This document shows positions 3,009-32,025 of a DNA stretch of 32,025 bases, one piece after another (within the stretch, counting starts at the first letter, position 1; the number at the start of each line of letters is the position of its first letter). The translations under genes and the position numbers were made by a program. Source of the stretch: Candidatus Nomurabacteria bacterium (GTDB taxonomy: Bacteria; Patescibacteriota; Minisyncoccia; Phycocordibacterales; UBA9973); NCBI GenBank assembly GCA_943350875.1, contig CALRAL010000001.1, positions 132,992 to 165,016 of the forward strand, in the 5' to 3' direction. A model generated the notes under the pieces. It searched no databases. It was not told the origin of the DNA and was given only the letters and a program-made list of their open reading frames with translations.

Positions 3009-3081
3009 ATTTGTAGATTAAGTATAACAAAATCATATTTTATGTCAAATCAAAAAGTGGAAAACAAAATAAATATAAAAG

Positions 3082-3104
3082 TGCTAAAATAACGTTATAT
3101 TATG
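3082..3104 (+). promoter_or_regulatory. promoter/operator-like element upstream of VirD4-like gene (copy 2)
   Basis: identical 23 bp to 2553-2575 including the start codon. Confidence 0.7.
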
Positions 3105-4724: not shown

Positions 4725-6419
4725 ATGGAAACAAAAAATTGCCAAAACTGTAAGAAAGATTTTGTAATAGAGCCAGAAGATTTTAACTTTTATGAGAAAA
4801 TAAAAGTTCCTGTACCTACCTTTTGTCCTGAGTGTAGAAATATGCAGAGGATGGCAACTAGGAATGTGAAATCTTTATATAAAAAGGAATGTGATTTATG
4901 TAAAAAAAGTGTCATTTCTAGATTCTCACCGAATAATCCTGCCAGAATGTATTGTAGAGACTGTTGGTGGGGAGACGGTTGGGACGCTATGTCTTTTGGA
5001 AAAGAATATGACTTTTCTAAAACGTTTTTTGAACAATTCAAGGAGCTTCTTTTTATCGTGCCACATGTTTCGCTTTTGAGTTCAAATATGACTGAAAGTG
5101 ATTATTCAAATATGGAATCTGATGGCAAACGTTGCTATCTGACTTTTGGTGGACATTACAATGAAGATTGTGCTTTTACTGAATACTGTCTTTGGGGTAG
5201 GGAAGTTTATGATTCTTATTGGGCTTTTAAATCAGAGCAATGTTATCAATGTTTACTGATCGAGCGTTGCTATAGAACTTTTTATTCACAGCAATGTTAT
5301 GACTGTTTAGATACTTATTTTTCTTACGATTGTTCTAATTGTTCAAATATTATAGGTTGCGCAGGCTTACGTAATAAATCTTATTGTATTTTCAATCAGC
5401 AATATTCTCATAAAGAGTTTTTGAAGATAAAAGATAGTTTTAATCTAAGCTCCAAGAAAGGTGTTTTAGAACTATTGGAAAAATCAAAAAAAGTCTGGCT
5501 TGGTTTTCCACATAAAGAAAGTTTAATAACTCATTCAAATAATTGCTCAGGGAATAGTGTAGTTAATTCAAAAAATTCAAAGAATATTTATCAAGCAGAT
5601 CAAGTAGAAGATTCAAAATATGTCTATATTGGGGCTTGGAATAAAAACTGTTACGACGAAACTTCTACCGGTAATAATGAACTAACTTATATGTGTGCTA
5701 ACGGTGGTGGACTTTACAATTGTATTGCTGTTCTATATTCTTTTGGTTCAGATGTAGTCAAAAAGAAAAATGCTTTCGATTGTCAATATTCATATACAGT
5801 TTTGAATTGTAATGATTGTTTTGGTTGTGTTGGACTTCGCAATAAACAGTATTGTATTTTAAATAAACAATATACCAAAGAGGAATATTTTAAGCTTTTA
5901 GAAAAAATAAAAAAGGAGATGTTGGTAAATCCTTTTAAATCACAAAAAACAGGGCAAGTTTTTAGTTATGGAGATTTTTTCCCTTCAGAACATTCACTTT
6001 TTTCATATAATGAAACTGTAGCCAATGATTTTTACCCAAAAACAAAAGAAGAAGTAGAAAAAGCAGGTTTTATCTGGCGAGAAGAACCAGAAACCAATTA
6101 TGATTTTAGCGATTATGATATTCTTGATGATATAAAGGATGTGGATGATTCTATATTATCGAAAGTTTTGAAATGTGAAAAGAGTGGCAAGGGTTATAAG
6201 ATAATAAACCAAGAATTTACTTTTTACAAAAAAATGGGAATCCCTATCCCTCGTATTTCACCATTAGCCAGGATTAAAGATAGAATATATCTACTTTTAC
6301 CTTTTAAACTTTTTGCTCGACAATGTCAAAAATGTTACAAAGATATCCAAACCCCGTATGCCCCCGAACGCCCAGAAATAGTGTATTGCGAAAAATGTTA
6401 CCAGCAGGAAGTTTACTAG
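4725..6419 (+). CDS. Cys-rich zinc-ribbon protein, tandem paralog 1
   Basis: N-terminal CQNCKKDF...FCPEC; about 34 Cys by eye; two internal copies of CxGCxGLRNKxYCIxNxQYxxxE; C-terminal CEKCYQQEVY. Confidence 0.85.
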   Translation: METKNCQNCKKDFVIEPEDFNFYEKIKVPVPTFCPECRNMQRMATRNVKSLYKKECDLCKKSVISRFSPNNPARMYCRDCWWGDGWDAMSFGKEYDFSKTFFEQFKELLFIVPHVSLLSSNMTESDYSNMESDGKRCYLTFGGHYNEDCAFTEYCLWGREVYDSYWAFKSEQCYQCLLIERCYRTFYSQQCYDCLDTYFSYDCSNCSNIIGCAGLRNKSYCIFNQQYSHKEFLKIKDSFNLSSKKGVLELLEKSKKVWLGFPHKESLITHSNNCSGNSVVNSKNSKNIYQADQVEDSKYVYIGAWNKNCYDETSTGNNELTYMCANGGGLYNCIAVLYSFGSDVVKKKNAFDCQYSYTVLNCNDCFGCVGLRNKQYCILNKQYTKEEYFKLLEKIKKEMLVNPFKSQKTGQVFSYGDFFPSEHSLFSYNETVANDFYPKTKEEVEKAGFIWREEPETNYDFSDYDILDDIKDVDDSILSKVLKCEKSGKGYKIINQEFTFYKKMGIPIPRISPLARIKDRIYLLLPFKLFARQCQKCYKDIQTPYAPERPEIVYCEKCYQQEVY

Positions 6420-6440: not shown

Positions 6441-6480
6441 TACAATTTACTACAATATACTGTAGCAAAACAAAATTATG
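6441..6480 (+). promoter_or_regulatory. shared 40-bp upstream element, copy A (with TACAATATACTGTA dyad)
   Basis: about 33/40 identical, ungapped, to 23107-23146; both end in the start codon. Confidence 0.65.
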
Positions 6481-8199
6481 CAAAGCGAAACAAAAATTTG
6501 TCAAAATTGTAAAAAAGATTTTATTATAGAACCTGAAGATTTTAACTTTTACGAAAAAATGAAAGTGCCTGCGCCGACATGGTGCCCAGAATGTCGAATG
6601 GTTCGTCGTCTTTCTTTTAGGAATGAATCAATGCTTTTTCGTAGACTTGATTCACATACTGGGAAAGAAATTTTTTCTGGTTTTTCTCCAAAATCGAAAG
6701 TTATAACATATGAAAATAACTATTGGTATAGTTCCGATTGGGACCAACTTGAGACTGGAGTAGATTATGATTTTTCAAAAACTTTTTTTGAACAGTTCAG
6801 ATTACTTTTTTCTCGAGCACCTGTTTTAGCAAGGTCAGTATACAACATGGTTAATTCAGATTATTGTCAAGAAGCCAGTGAATGTAAAAATGCTTATTTA
6901 TGTTTTAATGCAGATTATATTGAAAATTCTGCCTATCTTCGAAAATCTCATAGAGTCAAAGACTCTTTTGATTGTTATGAAGTTGATGAAAATGAACTTT
7001 GTTATGAGAATGTTTTAGTAGATAAAAGTTATCAGACTTTTTTCTCTACTGATTGTGAAAGTTGTGTAGATGTATGGTTTTCAAAAGGACTTCGTGGGTG
7101 TACTAATTGCTTTGGTTGTGTAAATTTAAGAAATAAATCTTATTATTATTTCAATAAAGCATGTACTAGAGAAGAATATTTAGAAAATATTAGATTTCTA
7201 ACTTCAGGTTCTTATAAAATAATGTTGGAAACAAAAAAGAAAGTCGCAAACTTTTGGTTGAATTTTCCAAATAAATTTTATCATGGTCTTCGTGTTATTA
7301 ACTCGACAGGAGAAAGAATTTTTGATTCAAAAAATGTTAAAGATTCTTATTTTGTTAAAAATGCTCAGAATATGCGTTATTGCCAAGATGTTTGGATAAA
7401 AGCCAGTGATTGTTATGACTATTCTGTATGGGGAGATGGTGCTGAGAATATATATGAATGCATGACTTGTGGTATGGGTGTTTATAATTTGAAATTTTGT
7501 TTTCATTGCTGGGAAGAAGCACGTGATTTAGAATATTGTGCTTATTGTATAGGTTCAAAAAATTGTTTCGGTTGTGTTGGTTTGTATAAAAAAGAATACT
7601 GTATTTTTAATAAGCAATATACAAAAGAAGAGTATTTTTTAATGGTACAAAAAATTAAAAAACAGATGAATGAGGTGCCATATATAGATAAAAATGGAAG
7701 AATTTATAGATATGGTGAATTCTTCTCATTTGATATTTCTCCACTTTCTTACAATGAAAGTTTGGCCCAGTTTTTCTTCCCTTTAGATAAAAATACAGCT
7801 GAAGAAAAAGGTTATCAATGGAGAGAAAATAGTACCAGAGAATATGATATAACAATTGATGCAAAAGATTTGAAAGACAATATTGATGATATTGAAGACA
7901 CTATTTTAAATGAAGCAATAAAGTGTATAAATTGCAATAGAGCATATAGAATAATTAGTCTTGAATTTCAATTTTACAAAAGAATGAAATTACCCTTACC
8001 GAGAACTTGTCACAATTGTAGATTTATTGAACGTTTTAAATTAGTTAATCCACCAAAACTTTGGCATCGAAAATGTATGTGTGATAAAACAAGTCATAAT
8101 CACCAAGGAAAATGTGAGGTAGAATTTGAAACCCCATATGCCCCCGAACGCCCTGAAATAGTTTATTGCGAAAAATGTTATCAGCAGGAGGTATATTAG
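6478..8199 (+). CDS. Cys-rich zinc-ribbon protein, tandem paralog 2
   Basis: same architecture as paralog 1; about 35 Cys by eye; retains CINC...CHNC ligands missing from paralog 1. Confidence 0.85.
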   Translation: MQSETKICQNCKKDFIIEPEDFNFYEKMKVPAPTWCPECRMVRRLSFRNESMLFRRLDSHTGKEIFSGFSPKSKVITYENNYWYSSDWDQLETGVDYDFSKTFFEQFRLLFSRAPVLARSVYNMVNSDYCQEASECKNAYLCFNADYIENSAYLRKSHRVKDSFDCYEVDENELCYENVLVDKSYQTFFSTDCESCVDVWFSKGLRGCTNCFGCVNLRNKSYYYFNKACTREEYLENIRFLTSGSYKIMLETKKKVANFWLNFPNKFYHGLRVINSTGERIFDSKNVKDSYFVKNAQNMRYCQDVWIKASDCYDYSVWGDGAENIYECMTCGMGVYNLKFCFHCWEEARDLEYCAYCIGSKNCFGCVGLYKKEYCIFNKQYTKEEYFLMVQKIKKQMNEVPYIDKNGRIYRYGEFFSFDISPLSYNESLAQFFFPLDKNTAEEKGYQWRENSTREYDITIDAKDLKDNIDDIEDTILNEAIKCINCNRAYRIISLEFQFYKRMKLPLPRTCHNCRFIERFKLVNPPKLWHRKCMCDKTSHNHQGKCEVEFETPYAPERPEIVYCEKCYQQEVY

Positions 8200-8212
8200 C
8201 CTTACCAAAAAT

Positions 8213-8254
8213 ACTGATGCCATAAAACAATGCGGTCGTCTCATTTTGTAGTAT
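8213..8254. repeat. 42-bp dispersed intergenic repeat, copy A
   Basis: ACTGATGCCATAAAACAATGCGGTCGTCTCATTTTGTAGTAT; 38/42 identical to 27974-28015. Confidence 0.85.
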
Positions 8255-25003: not shown

Positions 25004-26097
25004 AAGAAAAAAAGGTAGATAGATTTTTCTTGGTACTTGTGTCCCTTATTATTTTTTTAGGGACGGCAATGTTTATTTCTGCTTCTTTAGGGATATTATC
25101 TCGAAGCCAAAGTACTTTTTATTCAGTACTTTTTAGTCAGCTTGTTCTGGGTCTTGGTTTGGGTTTAGTTTGCATGTTTTTCTGCTTAAAAATAGATTAT
25201 TTATTTTGGCGAAAATATTCTTTTTATATTTTTTTAAGTTCTATACTTTTGACTTTAGCAGTATTTATTCCAGGATTAGGATTGACGCATCTGGGAGCAG
25301 AACGATGGATAAAATTAGGACCGATATCTTTTCAACCAGTTGAATTTTTGAAATTTGGTTTTGTTATTTATTTTGCTGCTTGGCTTTCTTGGGCAAAAAA
25401 TAAAGCGCAAGATTTTAAATTTGGCATTTTACCACTTGGCGTATTACTCACTATCATCGCCATTATTTTATTTAAACAACCAGACACTAAAAGTTTTATT
25501 TTAATAGCAGTGACAGGCATATCTATGCTTTTTATCTCTGGCGTGTCAGTGAAATACATTTTAAGTGTTTTATTGGGTTCAATCCTTGTTTTGGGTTCAC
25601 TTGTTTTCTTTACCCCATATCTTCAAGATCGAGTGAAAACTTTTATTGATCCATCTTCAGATCCCAGAGGTTCATCGTATCAGATACAACAGTCTCAAAT
25701 AGCGCTCGGTTCTGGAGGAGTATTTGGCAGAGGCTATGGACAGGGGATTCAGAAATTTAGTTATTTACCAGAACCACAAGGGGATTCACTTTTTGCTGTG
25801 CTAGGAGAAGAATTAGGTTTTGCTGGGGCTATTTTTACTATATTACTTTATTTACTTTTTATCTTGCGAGGGTTTAAAATAGCGAACAATTCATCTGATT
25901 TATTTAGTAGACTTTTGGTCTCTGGAATTGTTATACTTATCGGAGCGCAGGCTTTTATGCATATTTCTTCTGTAATAGGAGTGTTTCCGCTTACAGGAGT
26001 GCCACTGCCTTTTATGAGTCACGGAGGCACTTCTCTCATGATAGACCTTGTCGCTATAGGTATAATTTTACAAATATCAAAATTTAGCAGAAATTAA
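25000..26097 (+). CDS. FtsW/RodA/SpoVE (SEDS) family protein
   Basis: multi-TM; RWIKLGPISFQPVEFLKFG; GRGYGQGIQKFSYLPEPQGDSLFAVLGEELGF; PLPFMSHGGTS. Confidence 0.94.
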   Translation: MKEKKVDRFFLVLVSLIIFLGTAMFISASLGILSRSQSTFYSVLFSQLVLGLGLGLVCMFFCLKIDYLFWRKYSFYIFLSSILLTLAVFIPGLGLTHLGAERWIKLGPISFQPVEFLKFGFVIYFAAWLSWAKNKAQDFKFGILPLGVLLTIIAIILFKQPDTKSFILIAVTGISMLFISGVSVKYILSVLLGSILVLGSLVFFTPYLQDRVKTFIDPSSDPRGSSYQIQQSQIALGSGGVFGRGYGQGIQKFSYLPEPQGDSLFAVLGEELGFAGAIFTILLYLLFILRGFKIANNSSDLFSRLLVSGIVILIGAQAFMHISSVIGVFPLTGVPLPFMSHGGTSLMIDLVAIGIILQISKFSRN

Positions 26098-26217
26098 CGA
26101 GTGAAACGAATATAATTTCGCTACCCTGTTAAATAACTTTTGCCAAGCAAAAGTTGTCCGAAGGACATTTAACAGGGTAAAGATTTTAATAATCGCTTCG
26201 CTCATTTAAAATCATTT
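26091..26217 (+). promoter_or_regulatory. multi-helix structured leader upstream of murG
   Basis: P1 CCCTGTTAAAT/ATTTAACAGGG, P2 AACTTTTGC/GCAAAAGTT, P3 GTCC/GGAC, P4 GATTTTAAT/ATTTAAAATC; matching architecture at 31709-31846. Confidence 0.8.
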
Positions 26218-27348
26218 ATGAAAATAGTTTTTACAGGAGGAGGAACTGGCGGTCATTTTTATCCAATTATCGCCGTGGCTCAAAAAGTCAACCAAATAAT
26301 AAGCGACGAAAAGATAATAGGCGCCAAGCTGTATTATTTTTCTGATAATCCTTATGACAAGGAAGCTCTTTTTGAAAACGGCATTATATTTGAAGAAGTG
26401 AAAGCGGGAAAAATGCGCACTTATTTTTCTTTCAAGAATTTTTCAGATATTTTTAAAACTTTTTTTGGAGTGATAAATGGAATATATAAGATGTTTTCAA
26501 TCTATCCAGATGTAGTTTTCTGTAAAGGCGGATATGCGAGTTTCCCTTCAATCGTTGCTGCGAGGATTCTTCGTATCCCAGTTTTTGTACACGAATCAGA
26601 TACTGCACCAGGACGGGTAAACAAATGGGCAGGGAAGTTTGCCAAGAGGGTGGCGGTATCCTTTAAAGATGCAGTCTCATTTTTCCCGCCAAAAACTACT
26701 GCTTGGACTGGTCAGCCAATAAGAACAGAGATAGAGCATGGTGCCGAGAGAAGCGAAGCTCTAAAATATTTTAAATTTGAATCTAGTTTGCCTGTGATAT
26801 TTATTATCGGAGGGTCTCAAGGGGCAGAACTCATAAACAATACGGTACTTGATGCTCTGCCTCGGCTTCTAGAGAATTATCAAATAGTGCATCAGGCAGG
26901 AGTAAATAATTTCAAACTTGTTTCTGGTAGGGCAGAAGTAGTGCTAGCGGATAATCCAAATAAAAGCAGATATTTAGTGATGCCATTTTTAAATCCACTG
27001 GCTTTGAAGATGGTGGCTGGAGCTTCTTCACTCGTCGTCTCTCGAGCTGGTTCACAAATATTTGAAATAGCTTCCTGGGGTATTCCTTCGATACTTGTTC
27101 CTATTACAAAGACGAATCTTGATCATCAGAAAAAGAATGCTTTTGCCTATGCTCGCACAGGAGCATGCAGTGTGATAGAAGAGATGAATATGACTGCCAA
27201 TATTTTTAGTTCGGAAATTGAGAGGATAATAGGGGACAAAGAAACACTACAACGCATGGCACATTCGGCTCTCGCTTTCAGTAAACCAGGTGCTTCTCTC
27301 CAAATAGCCCGCGAACTTGTAGATATGGCTTTGAGCCATGAGAAATAG
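26218..27348 (+). CDS. murG: UDP-GlcNAc:undecaprenyl-PP-MurNAc-pentapeptide GlcNAc transferase
   Basis: FTGGGTGGHFYPIIAVA; FVHESDTAPGRVNKWAGKFAKRVAVSF; IGGSQGAELINN; SRAGSQIFEIASWGIPSILVPI. Confidence 0.96.
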   Translation: MKIVFTGGGTGGHFYPIIAVAQKVNQIISDEKIIGAKLYYFSDNPYDKEALFENGIIFEEVKAGKMRTYFSFKNFSDIFKTFFGVINGIYKMFSIYPDVVFCKGGYASFPSIVAARILRIPVFVHESDTAPGRVNKWAGKFAKRVAVSFKDAVSFFPPKTTAWTGQPIRTEIEHGAERSEALKYFKFESSLPVIFIIGGSQGAELINNTVLDALPRLLENYQIVHQAGVNNFKLVSGRAEVVLADNPNKSRYLVMPFLNPLALKMVAGASSLVVSRAGSQIFEIASWGIPSILVPITKTNLDHQKKNAFAYARTGACSVIEEMNMTANIFSSEIERIIGDKETLQRMAHSALAFSKPGASLQIARELVDMALSHEK

Positions 27349-27386
27349 AATAAAAGCTTATATTTAAAGGCTTAATCGTAAAGTCC

Positions 27387-27415
27387 TTGACTTTTAAACT
27401 TGGTTGTGCTATACT
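27387..27415 (+). promoter_or_regulatory. sigma70-like promoter: TTGACT, 17-bp spacer, TATACT with TG extension
   Basis: direct reading of hexamers and spacing. Confidence 0.8.
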
Positions 27416-27494
27416 TCTATTGAATAAGTTATTTTATAATAATTCCCGAGGTCGCTGAAAATCGGTTCAAGAGTAAGCATTATTAAAAAAATTT

Positions 27495-27746
27495 ATGGAC
27501 GAAAAAGTCCTAACCGAGCAAGAAGAGCAAGTAATTCTTAGAAAAATAGTGAAAGCTCTTTTTAAAAGAAAAGAAATCTGTTTTGCTGATGCAAAAAGAG
27601 ATGTAGGAAACATGTCCTCTGAAATAAAGGAAGACAATCAGAAAGTAGCTATGGTTATGGGAAAGCTATTAGCTGAGATTGTTTCTGAATCTTTTAAACC
27701 CGAAAATTACGAAAAAGGTATCGCCAAGTATAATGGCGGTCACTAA
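27495..27746 (+). CDS. small hypothetical protein (83 aa)
   Basis: ORF bounded by a consensus promoter upstream and a terminator downstream; no family recognised. Confidence 0.6.
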   Translation: MDEKVLTEQEEQVILRKIVKALFKRKEICFADAKRDVGNMSSEIKEDNQKVAMVMGKLLAEIVSESFKPENYEKGIAKYNGGH

Positions 27747-27769
27747 TTTAGTAAATTGTAAAAATAATA

Positions 27770-27960
27770 AAATTTAGTTCTGGTGGAGTTTACTCCCTAA
27801 ACGGGTAATTATTCCTCGGCGAAAGCTTTAGGATAGAACAAGAACCGTTTCCTCACTAAATAATTATTTTAAACGCTGGTAATTCTTCTCCAGTGATTGG
27901 CTAAGCCAAGAAGAAATTAACTCAACCCTTTATATTTGTATAAAGGGTTGTTTCTTTTTT
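27770..27960 (+). ncRNA. candidate structured RNA (or structured 3' UTR), family unassigned
   Basis: non-coding, hairpin-rich: GGAG-TTTA-CTCC, AAACGG/CCGTTT, TGGAG/CTCCA long-range pairing; ends in a strong intrinsic terminator. Confidence 0.4.
27923..27960 (+). terminator. intrinsic terminator
   Basis: CAACCCTTTAT-ATTTGT-ATAAAGGGTTG + TTTCTTTTTT. Confidence 0.93.
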
Positions 27961-27973
27961 ATATGTCATATTT

Positions 27974-28015
27974 ACTGATACTATAAAACAATGCGGTCGT
28001 CTTATTTCGTAGTAT
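27974..28015. repeat. 42-bp dispersed intergenic repeat, copy B
   Basis: ACTGATACTATAAAACAATGCGGTCGTCTTATTTCGTAGTAT; 38/42 identical to 8213-8254. Confidence 0.85.
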
Positions 28016-28019
28016 ACGT

Positions 28020-28044
28020 ATGACATAGGAGTTTCCTATGTCAT
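28020..28044. repeat. 25-bp palindrome upstream of gltX
   Basis: ATGACATAGGA-GTT-TCCTATGTCAT, 11-bp perfect arms. Confidence 0.9.
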
Positions 28045-28079
28045 TTTGAAACTTAGTATATTTAAAGTATAATATCCCT

Positions 28080-29393
28080 ATGTCATCAAAAGTGGTAACA
28101 AGATTTGCGCCGAGTCCGACAGGACTTTTGCATTTAGGTACTTATAGGACTGCTATTTTTTCCTATCTATATGCCAAAAAGAATAATGGCACTTTTGTAC
28201 TTCGAATAGAAGATACAGATAAAGAACGCTCAAAAAAAGAATATGAAGAAAATATAATAGAAAGCTTGAAATGGTTGGGACTTGATTATGATCAATTTTA
28301 TCGTCAATCGGATAATTTAGATAGGCATAAATTTTATTTAGAAAAAATGATAAAAGAAGGCAAGGCTTATATTTCAAAAGAAGAAGCAAAAGATGGTACA
28401 GGCGAGATAAAAGAACTTGTAAGATTTAAGAATCCAAATATAGATATTACTTTTCATGATGAAATAAAAGGAGAAGTAAAAATGAATACAACTGATTTAA
28501 ATGATTTTGTGATTGCTAGGAATTTAAATGAACCACTTTTCCATTTAGCGGTAGTGATAGATGATTTTGAAGAAGGAATCACGCATGTGATACGAGGTGA
28601 AGACCATGTTTCAAATACTCCTAGGCAGATTCTCATACAAAGAGCCATAGGTGCTCCGACTCCAATATACGCGCATTTACCACTTGTTTTGGGTGCTGAT
28701 AAATTAAAACTCTCAAAAAGGCGAGGAGCTTTGCCTATCACATCATATAAAGATATGGGTTTTCTACCAGAAGCAATTTTAAACGGTGTTGCTTTTGTAG
28801 GCTGGAATCCAGGCACAGACAAAGAGATATTTACTCATGATGAATTAGTAAAAGATTTTGATTTATCAAAAGTGCAAAAAAGCCCAGCTGTTTTTAATGA
28901 AGAAAAATTAAATTGGTTCAACAAAGAGCATATGAAGCTTTTGTCGACAGAAGAAGTAAATAAAAATATTTTGGAGAATTTGCCAGAGAATATGCGCAAT
29001 GTGAAACTCGTGCCAATAATTTTTGAACGTATCACAAAATGGGGAGATATTAAGAATATGGTTTCAGTGGGGGAGCTTGATTTCTTCTTTAAACAGCCGG
29101 AATATGATAAAAGTAAATTAATTTATAAAAATGTTCAAAGTTCGACTTTGAACATATCAGAAAATATAAATAAAGCTATTTCAGTATTAGAAGAATTGAA
29201 TGAAAATAATTTCACAAAGGAAAATGTCAAAGAAGTTTTGATGAAAATAGCTGATAGCTTAGAGAGTAGGGGAGAGTTACTGCATCCTGTGCGGTTTGCC
29301 CTCTCTGGGCTAGATAAGTCTCCAGATCCATTTGTGATAGCAGAAGTTTTAGGTAAAAATGAAACATTGGCTCGCTTACAAAAAGCTATTTAG
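28080..29393 (+). CDS. gltX: glutamyl-tRNA synthetase
   Basis: RFAPSPTGLLHLGTYRTAIFSYLYA; LRIEDTDKERS; KLSKRRGALPI. Confidence 0.96.
   Translation: MSSKVVTRFAPSPTGLLHLGTYRTAIFSYLYAKKNNGTFVLRIEDTDKERSKKEYEENIIESLKWLGLDYDQFYRQSDNLDRHKFYLEKMIKEGKAYISKEEAKDGTGEIKELVRFKNPNIDITFHDEIKGEVKMNTTDLNDFVIARNLNEPLFHLAVVIDDFEEGITHVIRGEDHVSNTPRQILIQRAIGAPTPIYAHLPLVLGADKLKLSKRRGALPITSYKDMGFLPEAILNGVAFVGWNPGTDKEIFTHDELVKDFDLSKVQKSPAVFNEEKLNWFNKEHMKLLSTEEVNKNILENLPENMRNVKLVPIIFERITKWGDIKNMVSVGELDFFFKQPEYDKSKLIYKNVQSSTLNISENINKAISVLEELNENNFTKENVKEVLMKIADSLESRGELLHPVRFALSGLDKSPDPFVIAEVLGKNETLARLQKAI
29131..29155. repeat. 25-bp palindrome inside gltX
   Basis: ATGTTCAAAGT-TCG-ACTTTGAACAT, 11-bp perfect arms. Confidence 0.9.
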
Positions 29394-30639
29394 TGTTTTT
29401 CTGGTTGGGATTTTTTTAATAATTCCAATTGTTTTTTTGTATGCTGGAACTATTGATGACTTGAATAATAAAATAAAAAGTAGAAATAATGACATAGCTA
29501 AACTTGAAGAAGAGATAAAGAATTATCAAAATCAACTTGAAGATTTGAGTAGACAAAAGGATTCCCTGAATGGGTCGCTGAAACAGCTTGATTTAACACG
29601 TAAGAAGCTTATTGTCAATATCTCAATAACTCAAAATAAAATTGCTAATACAAATACAAAAATAGAAGAATTGAGTTTGGATATTTCAGATAAAGAATAT
29701 ACTATCACGAGTTTCTCAGATTCTATTTCCGAGCAGATCAAGCAGACACATGAAGTCGAGTCTAATTCTGTTTTAGGCCAACTACTCTCGAAAGACAATT
29801 TGAGTTTAGTTTGGAATGATATAGACAATATGATGGTAGTCAGTGATAAAATCCGTGAAAAAATAGTCCAATTAAAACAAATAAAGATAGATCTCGAAGA
29901 CAAGAAAACACAGACAGAAAAAGCTAAGAAAGAATTAGTTTCTCTTAAAAATCAATTGGCCGATGAGAAAAAGATAGTGGACCAAAATACAGCTGAAAAG
30001 AAAAAACTTCTAGCTCAGACAAAAAATAATGAATCAAACTATCAGAAACTTTTGAAAGACAGATTAGCTAAAAAAGATGCTTTTGAGAAAGAGCTTCGGG
30101 ATTATGAATCACAATTAAAATATATTTTAGATCCTTCAAAATTGCCTAATGGAGGGGTGTTGAGCTGGCCTCTTGATTATATTTACATAACACAGAATTT
30201 TGGTAAGACAGAAGCAGGGAAACGTTTATATGCTAATGGTTCTCACAACGGCGTTGATTTTAGAGCTTTGGTGGGTACTCCGGTCAAAGCCATGGCTGAT
30301 GGGGTAGTCGCGGGTACTGGTGATACTGACATACAGTGCGCTGGGGTCTCTTTTGGGCGTTTTGTGCTTATCAAGTACAATAATGGCCTTGCCAGCACCT
30401 TTGGGCATTTATCCCTTATAAAGGCCAATATAGGGCAAAACGTCTCCAGGGGTGATGTAGTGGGCTACAGTGGCAATACAGGCTATTCTACAGGCCCGCA
30501 TCTACATGTGTCGTTATATGCAAAAGATGCTGTAGAGCTCAAAACACTGCCTAGCAAGTCTTGCCCTGGACGCGTTTTGACTCAGCCAATTTCTCCTATA
30601 AATGCGTATCTTGACCCACTATTTTATTTGCCTCATTAA
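29359..30639 (+). CDS. secreted coiled-coil + M23 (LytM) peptidase, EnvC-like
   Basis: signal-peptide-like N-terminus, long coiled coil, HNGVDFRALVGTPVKAMADGVV ... FGHLS ... GPHLHVSLY. Confidence 0.93.
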   Translation: MKHWLAYKKLFSVFLVGIFLIIPIVFLYAGTIDDLNNKIKSRNNDIAKLEEEIKNYQNQLEDLSRQKDSLNGSLKQLDLTRKKLIVNISITQNKIANTNTKIEELSLDISDKEYTITSFSDSISEQIKQTHEVESNSVLGQLLSKDNLSLVWNDIDNMMVVSDKIREKIVQLKQIKIDLEDKKTQTEKAKKELVSLKNQLADEKKIVDQNTAEKKKLLAQTKNNESNYQKLLKDRLAKKDAFEKELRDYESQLKYILDPSKLPNGGVLSWPLDYIYITQNFGKTEAGKRLYANGSHNGVDFRALVGTPVKAMADGVVAGTGDTDIQCAGVSFGRFVLIKYNNGLASTFGHLSLIKANIGQNVSRGDVVGYSGNTGYSTGPHLHVSLYAKDAVELKTLPSKSCPGRVLTQPISPINAYLDPLFYLPH

Positions 30640-30663
30640 AGCGTGTTATGGTAAAATATAAGT

Positions 30664-30810
30664 ATGAATAATAAAGAAAATAAACAAGGTGGGTTTCTCA
30701 GATTTATAATTGTTTTCATTATTGCGATTTTAATCATGAAATATCTGCACATCACTTTTGCTGATGTTTTTGAATGGATAAAAAATTTCTTTCAAAGTTT
30801 TTCTAAATAA
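30664..30810 (+). CDS. small single-TM protein (48 aa), not in supplied ORF track
   Basis: MNNKENKQGGFLRFIIVFIIAILIMKYLHITFADVFEWIKNFFQSFSK; preceded by TGGTAAAAT exactly 6 nt before ATG. Confidence 0.65.
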   Translation: MNNKENKQGGFLRFIIVFIIAILIMKYLHITFADVFEWIKNFFQSFSK

Positions 30811-30821
30811 TAAAATTTAAA

Positions 30822-31157
30822 ATGCAAAAAAATACAAAACAAAAAGGAGGGATAAGTATACTTGGAATCCTACTTTTAGGTTTGCTTTTGATACTAGTGC
30901 TCAGTTATTTTCATATTAGTATCCGCGCTGTAGTAGAGAGTCCTGATACGCAAGATAATTTGCATTATGTTGGGGGAGGCAGTAAAAGCATCTGGAATGA
31001 CTATTTTAAAGAGCCATTATCATATCTCTGGAATGATGTTTTTGTAAATATTTTCTGGGCATCATTTATAAATAATATGGAGCGTATCCGTGATGGCCAG
31101 CCTACAGACTACGAAGTCTACGCGCCAACTTTTCCAGGCAACAAAAGTCCGCAGTAG
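30822..31157 (+). CDS. small membrane protein (111 aa)
   Basis: KQKGGISILGILLLGLLLILVLSYFHI TM segment; adjacent to the 48-aa TM ORF. Confidence 0.7.
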   Translation: MQKNTKQKGGISILGILLLGLLLILVLSYFHISIRAVVESPDTQDNLHYVGGGSKSIWNDYFKEPLSYLWNDVFVNIFWASFINNMERIRDGQPTDYEVYAPTFPGNKSPQ

Positions 31158-31256
31158 TTTAAAGCTTATATAATAAATAATGACGTCGCAAAGATATATT
31201 GTGCGACCCGCCAGAGGACGGGCAGGCGTATTATAAATAGCGCTTCCCTCTAGTGT

Positions 31257-31682
31257 TTATTTGCAAGAAGTGGATTTTGAGTACCCTGCATTTTGGGCAT
31301 CTATTTCAGTTGTAAAATAAATTTTATTTGTTTCTTTAATTGTTTTTCCTGCAGAGCAACCTATAGAATAATATTTCTTGCCTTTTTTTGAAGCAAAAAA
31401 ATTATTATTCACTAAATCAGATTTTGAGCCATTTGTGTCAAAGACGGTCTTTGACACACTTTTATCCCCTTTTTGGGTATAATCTATGGTGTTATCTATG
31501 ACATTTGCCTCTTGTGCAGGGTATTCTATTTTTACACCAGTATTTTCTGAATTATTATTTTTGGATAATCTGCCCAGTCCAAACGAGCCTAGACCTACTA
31601 GCATGACTATGATTACAGTCATTATGTTTTTGCCTTTATCACTTTCTATACAGTATTTTGAAAATAGCTTGATTTTTTCCAT
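31257..31682 (-). CDS. membrane-anchored protein with C-terminal Ada-like metal-binding-type domain
   Basis: TM near N-terminus; NNFFASKKGKKYYSIGCSAGKTIKETNKIYFTTEIDAQNAGYSKSTSC. Confidence 0.7.
   Translation of the reverse strand: MEKIKLFSKYCIESDKGKNIMTVIIVMLVGLGSFGLGRLSKNNNSENTGVKIEYPAQEANVIDNTIDYTQKGDKSVSKTVFDTNGSKSDLVNNNFFASKKGKKYYSIGCSAGKTIKETNKIYFTTEIDAQNAGYSKSTSCK
31434..31458. repeat. 25-bp palindrome inside the 31257..31682 CDS
   Basis: TGTGTCAAAGAC-G-GTCTTTGACACA, 12-bp perfect arms. Confidence 0.9.
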
Positions 31683-31708
31683 ATAATTGTTTATACTTGA
31701 TTATATAA

Positions 31709-31846
31709 GAAATTAACGAGCAAAGCGAGTTTTTATTATATAATCAACCCCGTTAAATAACTTTTGCAGAGCAAAAGTTGAAATCTGAAAGATTTCATTT
31801 AACAGGGGTAAAGATTTTCTAATCGCTTCGCTCAAGAAAATCAATT
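31709..31846 (+). promoter_or_regulatory. multi-helix structured leader upstream of rpmA
   Basis: P1 CCCCGTTAAAT/ATTTAACAGGGG, P2 AACTTTTGC/GCAAAAGTT, P3 GAAATC/GATTTC, P4 GATTTTCT/AGAAAATC. Confidence 0.8.
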
Positions 31847-32025
31847 ATGGCACATAGAAAAGCCGGCGGAACCGCCAAAAACTTAAGAGACTCAAACCCA
31901 AAGTACCTCGGTACGAAGTTGGCTGACGGCCAAAACGCTTCTAAGGGGCATATTATAGTCCGCCAACGTGGTACACCTATCATAGCTGGTACAAATGTCG
32001 GCATGGGTAAAGATCATACCCTCTT
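31847..32025 (+). CDS. rpmA: 50S ribosomal protein L27 (truncated by window end)
   Basis: [59 protein letters not shown]. Confidence 0.95.

Follow-up and report, generated by a model that had tools for sequence, protein, structure and literature searches.

A hairpin element abutting start codons in Patescibacteria, probably a non-autonomous relative of a GIY-YIG-associated mobile family

Bacterial miniature inverted-repeat transposable elements (MITEs), of which MITEAba12 is reportedly an example, are short sequences that share their inverted-repeat ends with a protein-coding element and show insertion polymorphism. In the IS200/IS605 lineage, guide sequences pair with the cleavage sites of the transposase TnpA, a Y1 enzyme encoded inside an element that lacks terminal inverted repeats. 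REPINs of the REP-RAYT system are small, extragenic and non-autonomous and consist of two inverted imperfect palindromes (PMC3116915). Free-standing GIY-YIG homing genes, such as the seg genes of phage T4, lie between conserved genes without breaking them and may carry their own promoter; bounding inverted repeats are not described for them (PMC2988022). Here we analysed a stretch of 32,025 nucleotides (nt) from a Candidatus Nomurabacteria genome of 646 kb in 6 contigs (the window, positions 132992-165016 of contig C1). A reading of this DNA from its letters alone, hereafter the sequence-only reading, had noticed a multi-helix element directly upstream of murG and rpmA and had taken it for either a new cis-regulatory RNA or a structured mobile repeat.

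We consider the two copies most likely to be non-autonomous, MITE-like representatives of a family of mobile DNA in Patescibacteria, derived from a GIY-YIG-associated element that settles at stop/start junctions. This view is built on their anatomy, distribution, adjacency to start codons, insertion polymorphism, ends common with GIY-YIG elements and a DNA type of covariation. Both copies (26085-26217 and 31697-31846) follow one P0-P1(P2,P3)-P4 plan and end 4 nt 5' of an ATG (ANNN-ATG), with the consensus order, in the sense of the gene, TNNN - x - P0 hairpin - nnnA - CCC - GTTAAAT - P2 - P3 - ATTTAAC - A - GGG - Tnnn - P4 hairpin - A - NNN - ATG. The features, all on the forward (+) strand, are as follows.

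26085-26123 (+): P0 outer hairpin of the murG copy, TAGC-A-GAAATT (26090-26095) ... AATTTC (26114-26119)-GCTA, with the apical motif AACGAGTGAAACGAATAT at 26096-26113; assigned from sequence, TAGC/GCTA pairing, apical covariation and DNA fold
26124-26134 (+): P1 5' arm, CCC-T-GTTAAAT; from sequence and covariation, as are the next three
26135-26155 (+): P2 hairpin, AACTTTTGC-CAA-GCAAAAGTT
26156-26166 (+): P3 hairpin, GTCC-GAA-GGAC
26167-26177 (+): P1 3' arm, ATTTAAC-A-GGG
26178-26217 (+): P4 outer hairpin, T-AAA-GATTTTAA...TTAAAATC-A-TTT, in which AAA pairs with TTT directly 5' of the ATG (26218); its apical motif, read on the minus strand, is AATGAGCGAAGCGATTAT
26218-27348 (+): murG, flanking target gene outside the element (Pfam PF03033, PF04101)
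31697-31747 (+): P0 outer hairpin of the rpmA copy, TTGATTATATAA (31697-31708) ... TTATATAATCAA (31736-31747), apical motif AACGAGCAAAGCGAG
31748-31758 (+): P1 5' arm, CCCC-GTTAAAT
31759-31779 (+): P2 hairpin, AACTTTTGC-AGA-GCAAAAGTT
31780-31796 (+): P3 hairpin, GAAATC-TGAAA-GATTTC
31797-31808 (+): P1 3' arm, ATTTAAC-A-GGGG
31809-31846 (+): P4 outer hairpin, T-AAA-GATTTTCT...AGAAAATC-A-ATT, abutting the rpmA ATG (31847); the AAA/ATT triplet pairs at 2/3 positions only
31847-32025 (+): rpmA (L27), flanking target gene truncated at the window end (Pfam PF01016)

The stems P1 to P4 named in the sequence-only reading can all be read in both copies, and so can the pairing that P3 and part of P4 keep while differing in sequence. 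The start of the element, which had been placed at AGAAATTAACGAG, lies earlier, at the outer hairpin P0 of each copy. Pfam matches identify the downstream genes as those of MurG and L27, as had been claimed, and the gene upstream of the murG copy as that of FtsW; the ftsW stop codon TAA (26095-26097) falls inside P0. Both copies fold far more strongly than their dinucleotide shuffles (z -7.9 and -7.4). Taken as a whole, the element is a symmetric palindrome, with the inverted outer hairpins P0 and P4 around the P1 inverted repeat, and P1 is either invariant across elements or covaries as GTTAAAT/GTGAAAT. The window copies themselves contain no open reading frame (ORF), the GIY-YIG domain being present only in full-length relatives. 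A relationship to attC sites was rejected on inspection only: GTTAAAT...ATTTAAC resembles the integron core GTTRRRY/RYYYAAC, but the order is opposite.

To follow the family, we seeded a covariance model with only the murG and typA copies, leaving out the ATG; a two-sequence seed was used because MAFFT aligned the variable hairpins out of register. The model recovered the rpmA and rplB copies, which had been held out, as well as copies at rpsS and rpsN, so that the source genome carries the element at typA, murG, rpmA, rplB, rpsS and rpsN, and it found copies in 19 of the 60 genomes searched. A 20-sequence model, run over about 400 genomes of the order with at most ten candidates scored per genome, matched 74 of 397 genomes and 51 of 179 genera; the search of related genomes proposed in the sequence-only reading thereby recovered a family. 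These genomes are drafts of uncultured organisms, the counts are inflated by related sequences, and a gene is defined here by ORF thresholds. A pattern ending before a start codon occurred at 82 places in 84,980 genomes of named species, a scan that may omit the window's own record. Nearly all belong to Patescibacteria (Nomura-, Yonath-, Taylor-, Zambryski-, Kaiser- and Wolfebacteria and one Chisholmbacteria); the single match labelled Proteobacteria has neither a P1 arm nor an ATG. The ATG lies 33-48 nt 3' of P1 in 77 of the 82 places, at exactly 40 nt in 48 of them, and the orientation of P4 relative to the gene start is constant. The downstream genes, identified by eye from translations, are mixed housekeeping genes (ribosomal proteins, rpoB/rpoC, recA, nusA, typA, dnaJ, groEL, murG, secE, atpF, msrA, mutM and others), which extends to the whole family the earlier remark that murG and rpmA are functionally unrelated. 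They form no coherent regulon of the kind expected for a cis-regulatory RNA, and insertion at stop/start junctions accounts better for the recurrent adjacency to start codons. No description of the element was found in the open-licence literature, although such absence is no proof of novelty.

Full-length relatives encode a single-domain GIY-YIG protein of ~85 amino acids between the P1 arms, in place of P2 and P3 (PF01541, E 5e-16). In the source genome itself, P1 arms flank such an ORF 5' of rplJ (C3:102014), with the stop codon at the end of the P1 3' arm. All 15 of the inspected closest GIY-YIG genes in the order (at least 60% identity) lie between P1-type arms, about half of them also with P0/P4. 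Nuclease clade and repeat arm co-segregate; more distant clades carry arms of other sequence, the RFL type CCCGTTAGA or CCCGTACGAA and the KEFL type CCCGTAGTAGAAT. The element is present in 14 of 16 genomes with a close GIY-YIG gene versus 20 of 132 others (Fisher p 8e-9, comparing related genomes with no phylogenetic correction). Five GIY-YIG elements carry ATGA on both flanks. In four of them (L142, L154, L157, L158), the left TGA terminates an ORF of 72-486 codons lying upstream, and the right ATG starts the downstream gene. Insertion at a 4-nt ATGA overlap with its duplication would therefore restore both neighbouring genes. Overlaps of 4 nt are the most frequent co-directional overlaps in prokaryotes (PMC6728339).

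Comparison of orthologous junctions revealed insertion polymorphism. Among about 30 congeners, only the window genome (G000) carries the element at the rplW-rplB junction, which is tight in most of them. Of 30 congener loci, 27 have nothing inserted at the murG junction, and some of these show an ATGA stop/start overlap (L341, L345, L349). At this murG ATG, two further loci (L357, L359) have an inverted-repeat element of another kind (CCCGTTAGAA...TTCTAACGGG), and ATGAA is duplicated in L359. At typA the core occurs in opposite orientations in different species. The sequence-only reading had held that homologs in both orientations and away from start codons would point to a mobile repeat only; both orientations of the core were found, but copies almost always adjoin a start codon, so the latter part does not apply. 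As separate observations, four other palindrome families, e.g., CCCTACACCAGGTGTC...GACACCTGGTGTAGGG, occupy the same stop/start spot 5' of rplB (L162, L163, L164, L170), suggesting other start-codon-adjacent elements, and the elements with CCCGTTAGAA arms share a similar micro-ORF of ~20 amino acids (..NIKYQ.RELIA.CF*), whose stop codon lies within the 3' arm.

The family resembles bacterial MITEs in being a short inverted-repeat element in dispersed copies with empty sites elsewhere and with ends common to a protein-coding element, but its coding partner is a GIY-YIG nuclease and not a known transposase, and its placement at stop/start junctions is precise. Like the seg genes, the nuclease gene sits between conserved genes without breaking them, whereas here it is a single domain of ~85 amino acids, bounded by inverted repeats that co-segregate with its clade, and has non-coding hairpin derivatives. 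The family shares with REPINs the two inverted imperfect palindromes and differs in its conserved P1 core, filled by inner hairpins or a GIY-YIG ORF, in start-codon adjacency, in a variable foot triplet and in that no RAYT linkage was found. A short hairpin-foot sequence complementary to the flank recalls the ends of IS200/IS605 elements; however, the ends here are inverted and symmetric, the triplet varies by copy, and a GIY-YIG ORF or hairpins, with no Y1 gene, fill the inside. The protein is related in sequence to the single-domain UPF0213 GIY-YIG proteins (PDB 1zg2 and 1ywl, E 2e-6 and 1.5e-5), unlike which it is embedded in a repeat-bounded, putative mobile element.

The outer hairpins P0 and P4 repeat a single motif in inverted orientation. 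Covariation within the apical motif of each links positions 2-14, 5-11 and 6-10; 3.13 and 4.12 are nearly always G.A and A.G (tandem G.A), and the triloop is mostly GNA. The most frequent heptamer in P0 is d(GCGAAGC), which PMC6582339, in a statement citing Hirao 1994, calls an extraordinarily stable DNA minihairpin. P0 carries the motif on the sense strand and P4 on the antisense strand, which places it close to the 5' end of either strand, and such opposite-strand minihairpins fit recognition as DNA rather than as a single RNA.

At the foot of P4, the triplet that follows GGGT is fully complementary to the one preceding the ATG in 60 of 86 elements, and 10 different triplets are represented. 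Pairing averages 2.52 of 3 versus 1.63 after shuffling (maximum 1.88) and 0.41-0.90 when slid by one, and the excess persists without the commonest triplet GAT (2.24 versus 1.17, maximum 1.55). The mismatches comprise 6 G.U and 10 A.C. Complementarity at the distal end is weaker (2.03 of 4 versus 1.50). At the murG site of another Nomurabacteria metagenome-assembled genome (L317), both sides differ jointly, GAC/GTC versus AAA/TTT, and P3 is replaced. Candidate causes are guide/target pairing as at IS200/IS605 ends and template-switch correction of palindromes. In two loci with the same gene (MSQTQYLKML...), the foot TGAC pairs with GTCA before the ATG in L091 and with GTCA inside ATGTCA in L084.

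Among 20 sequences, standard pairs fill 98.7% of pair cells and 80 double changes occur, values above those of all shuffles and slides, and 70% of the bases of 109 inserts lie in Watson-Crick pairs of two abutting hairpins versus 30% after shuffling; the loop is exactly 3 nt long in 118 of 218 P2/P3 loops. An RNA helix on the sense strand tolerates G.U and not A.C, whereas a DNA palindrome treats both alike. The P2/P3 pairs of the 109 inserts comprise 1379 Watson-Crick, 13 G.U and 10 A.C pairs, while 27 control tRNAs from the fetched loci gave 553, 34 and 0. Since G.U is about as frequent as A.C in the elements, and the foot adjoining the ATG shows no excess of G.U either, the covariation, massive as it is, is of the DNA type and not the RNA type. 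These counts bear most directly on a cis-regulatory RNA or translation-initiation element in the 5' leader, in which P4 would sequester or present the start codon and pairing of P0 with the P4 loop would act as a switch. The near-constant spacing, almost always 35-46 nt from P1 to the ATG, the constant orientation of P4, the strong folding and the conservation of some sites across species would suit such an RNA, as would a TATAAT-like hexamer, typically 8 nt 5' of CCC on the P0 side (perfect in 17 of 112 P0 versus 3 of 112 P4 mirrors), from which transcripts could start at P1. The switch itself goes back to the P4-loop complementarity to upstream GAGTGAAACGA noticed in the sequence-only reading. 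That complementarity is real but stems from the inverted repetition of a single motif in P0 and P4, and the single-sequence minimum-free-energy RNA fold of the murG copy does pair them; however, P0 and P4 show no within-element covariation across 68 elements (9.84 versus 9.79 of 14, p 0.38), and we rejected a pseudoknot or kissing loop. The apical motif of P4 is antisense, the genes are unrelated, orthologous genes of most congeners lack the element, and a nuclease ORF replaces P2/P3 in some copies. The suggested check against Rfam returned no window match at gathering score, and a permissive search of five loci gave sub-threshold matches only. An RNA function is therefore improbable in our judgement, and of the two earlier alternatives the mobile repeat is the one supported, although the transcribed hairpins may have a secondary effect on expression.

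A different route to mobility would make the element REPIN-like, with two inverted REP-like hairpins, a Y1/RAYT transposase from the IS200/IS605 lineage as their mobiliser in trans, the 3-nt foot as guide/cleavage-site pairing and the GIY-YIG/P1 core as a nested second element. Its outer hairpins are indeed inverted and imperfect and span about 135 nt, the variable foot triplet matches the flank, and some P1-GIY-YIG elements lack outer hairpins. The source genome has ten matches to Y1 (RAYT-like) transposases (L053-L062), but none of these ten loci is flanked by P0/P4-like sequence within 1.5 kb in a pattern search. Of the 34 element-positive genomes, 7 have no Y1 match, among them G078 and G047, which account for 8 and 6 of the listed element matches, and 18 different foot triplets among 86 elements leave no fixed GTAG-type tag. 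RAYT was accordingly rejected as the mobiliser, and we give the REPIN-like account little credence. One locus of the source genome, L018 (G000:C1:90651), has abutting P0 and P4 hairpins without the P1 core, 5' of a small secreted-protein-like gene; this is perhaps a core-deleted element, and it would also suit a REPIN-like origin. Alternatively, once-mobile copies may have been domesticated as intercistronic or promoter/insulator hairpins, kept by host selection or template-switch palindrome correction with no ongoing mobility. The occupation of the same genes in different species (murG, typA, dnaJ, rpsS, rplK, rpsL), the coordinated triplet change at murG and the promoter-like hexamer in P0 agree with this; recurrent occupation, however, also fits site-specific homing, and the site in question is empty in many close relatives. 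We regard domestication as improbable. Some results do weigh against the reading as GIY-YIG-derived mobile elements. No close GIY-YIG homologue was found, in the search made, in 20 of 34 element-positive genomes, and Y1 transposases, present in most of these genomes, show an association with the element as well, if a weak one (p 0.016), much weaker than that of GIY-YIG. The ATGA duplication, clear in related GIY-YIG subfamilies and in one GTTAAAT-type element (L142), is not visible around the window copies, and some sites (typA, dnaJ, murG) persist in different species while changing in a coordinated way, a hint of domestication or structure maintenance.

The role of the GIY-YIG protein as mover, the mechanism and any current activity are inferred. 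The nuclease, made in cis or in trans, would recognise its own P1 ends and, where present, the outer minihairpins resembling single-stranded DNA, and would help to place a copy of the element where a stop codon meets the following start codon. In the related subfamilies, the ATGA overlap is duplicated, the left copy still stopping the upstream gene and the right copy still starting the downstream one, which would make the insertion nearly silent in a streamlined genome. We tentatively propose, as a possibility that we hold somewhat below an even chance, a new class of transposable element whose single-domain GIY-YIG nuclease serves as its own transposase, reads the inverted ends as minihairpins of DNA with tandem G.A and a GNA triloop, targets translation starts and restores both genes by ATGA duplication, with hairpin-only derivatives spreading between the operon genes of Patescibacteria. 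If GIY-YIG is the mobilising enzyme, this would be a compact start-codon-directed insertion system of ~85 amino acids. Patescibacteria are mostly uncultured and streamlined, and an element that invades operons of essential genes without breaking the neighbours would be a striking adaptation. Strong covariation in the leaders of their genomes can stem from DNA palindromes, which the G.U versus A.C asymmetry test tells from RNA regulation.

The window contains several other features. A sub-threshold Rfam match to DUF805b RNA lies at about 27445-27479 (L002:2818-2852; 24.2 bits versus a gathering score of 35.6). A 43-nt direct repeat, 91% identical (TACTGATGCCATAAAACAATGCGGTCGTCTCATTTTGTAGTAT) and unrelated to the P0-P4 element, occurs at 8212-8254 and 27973-28015, about 20 kb apart. 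Two paralogous cysteine-rich ORFs with internal repeats lie at 4725-6419 and 6478-8199 (564 and 573 amino acids); for the first, Pfam gave no more than a sub-threshold zinc-finger match. A 38-nt repeat at 2538-2575 and 3067-3104 ends exactly at two start codons (...TGCTAAAATAACGTTATATTATG) and is perhaps a common promoter with a very short leader.

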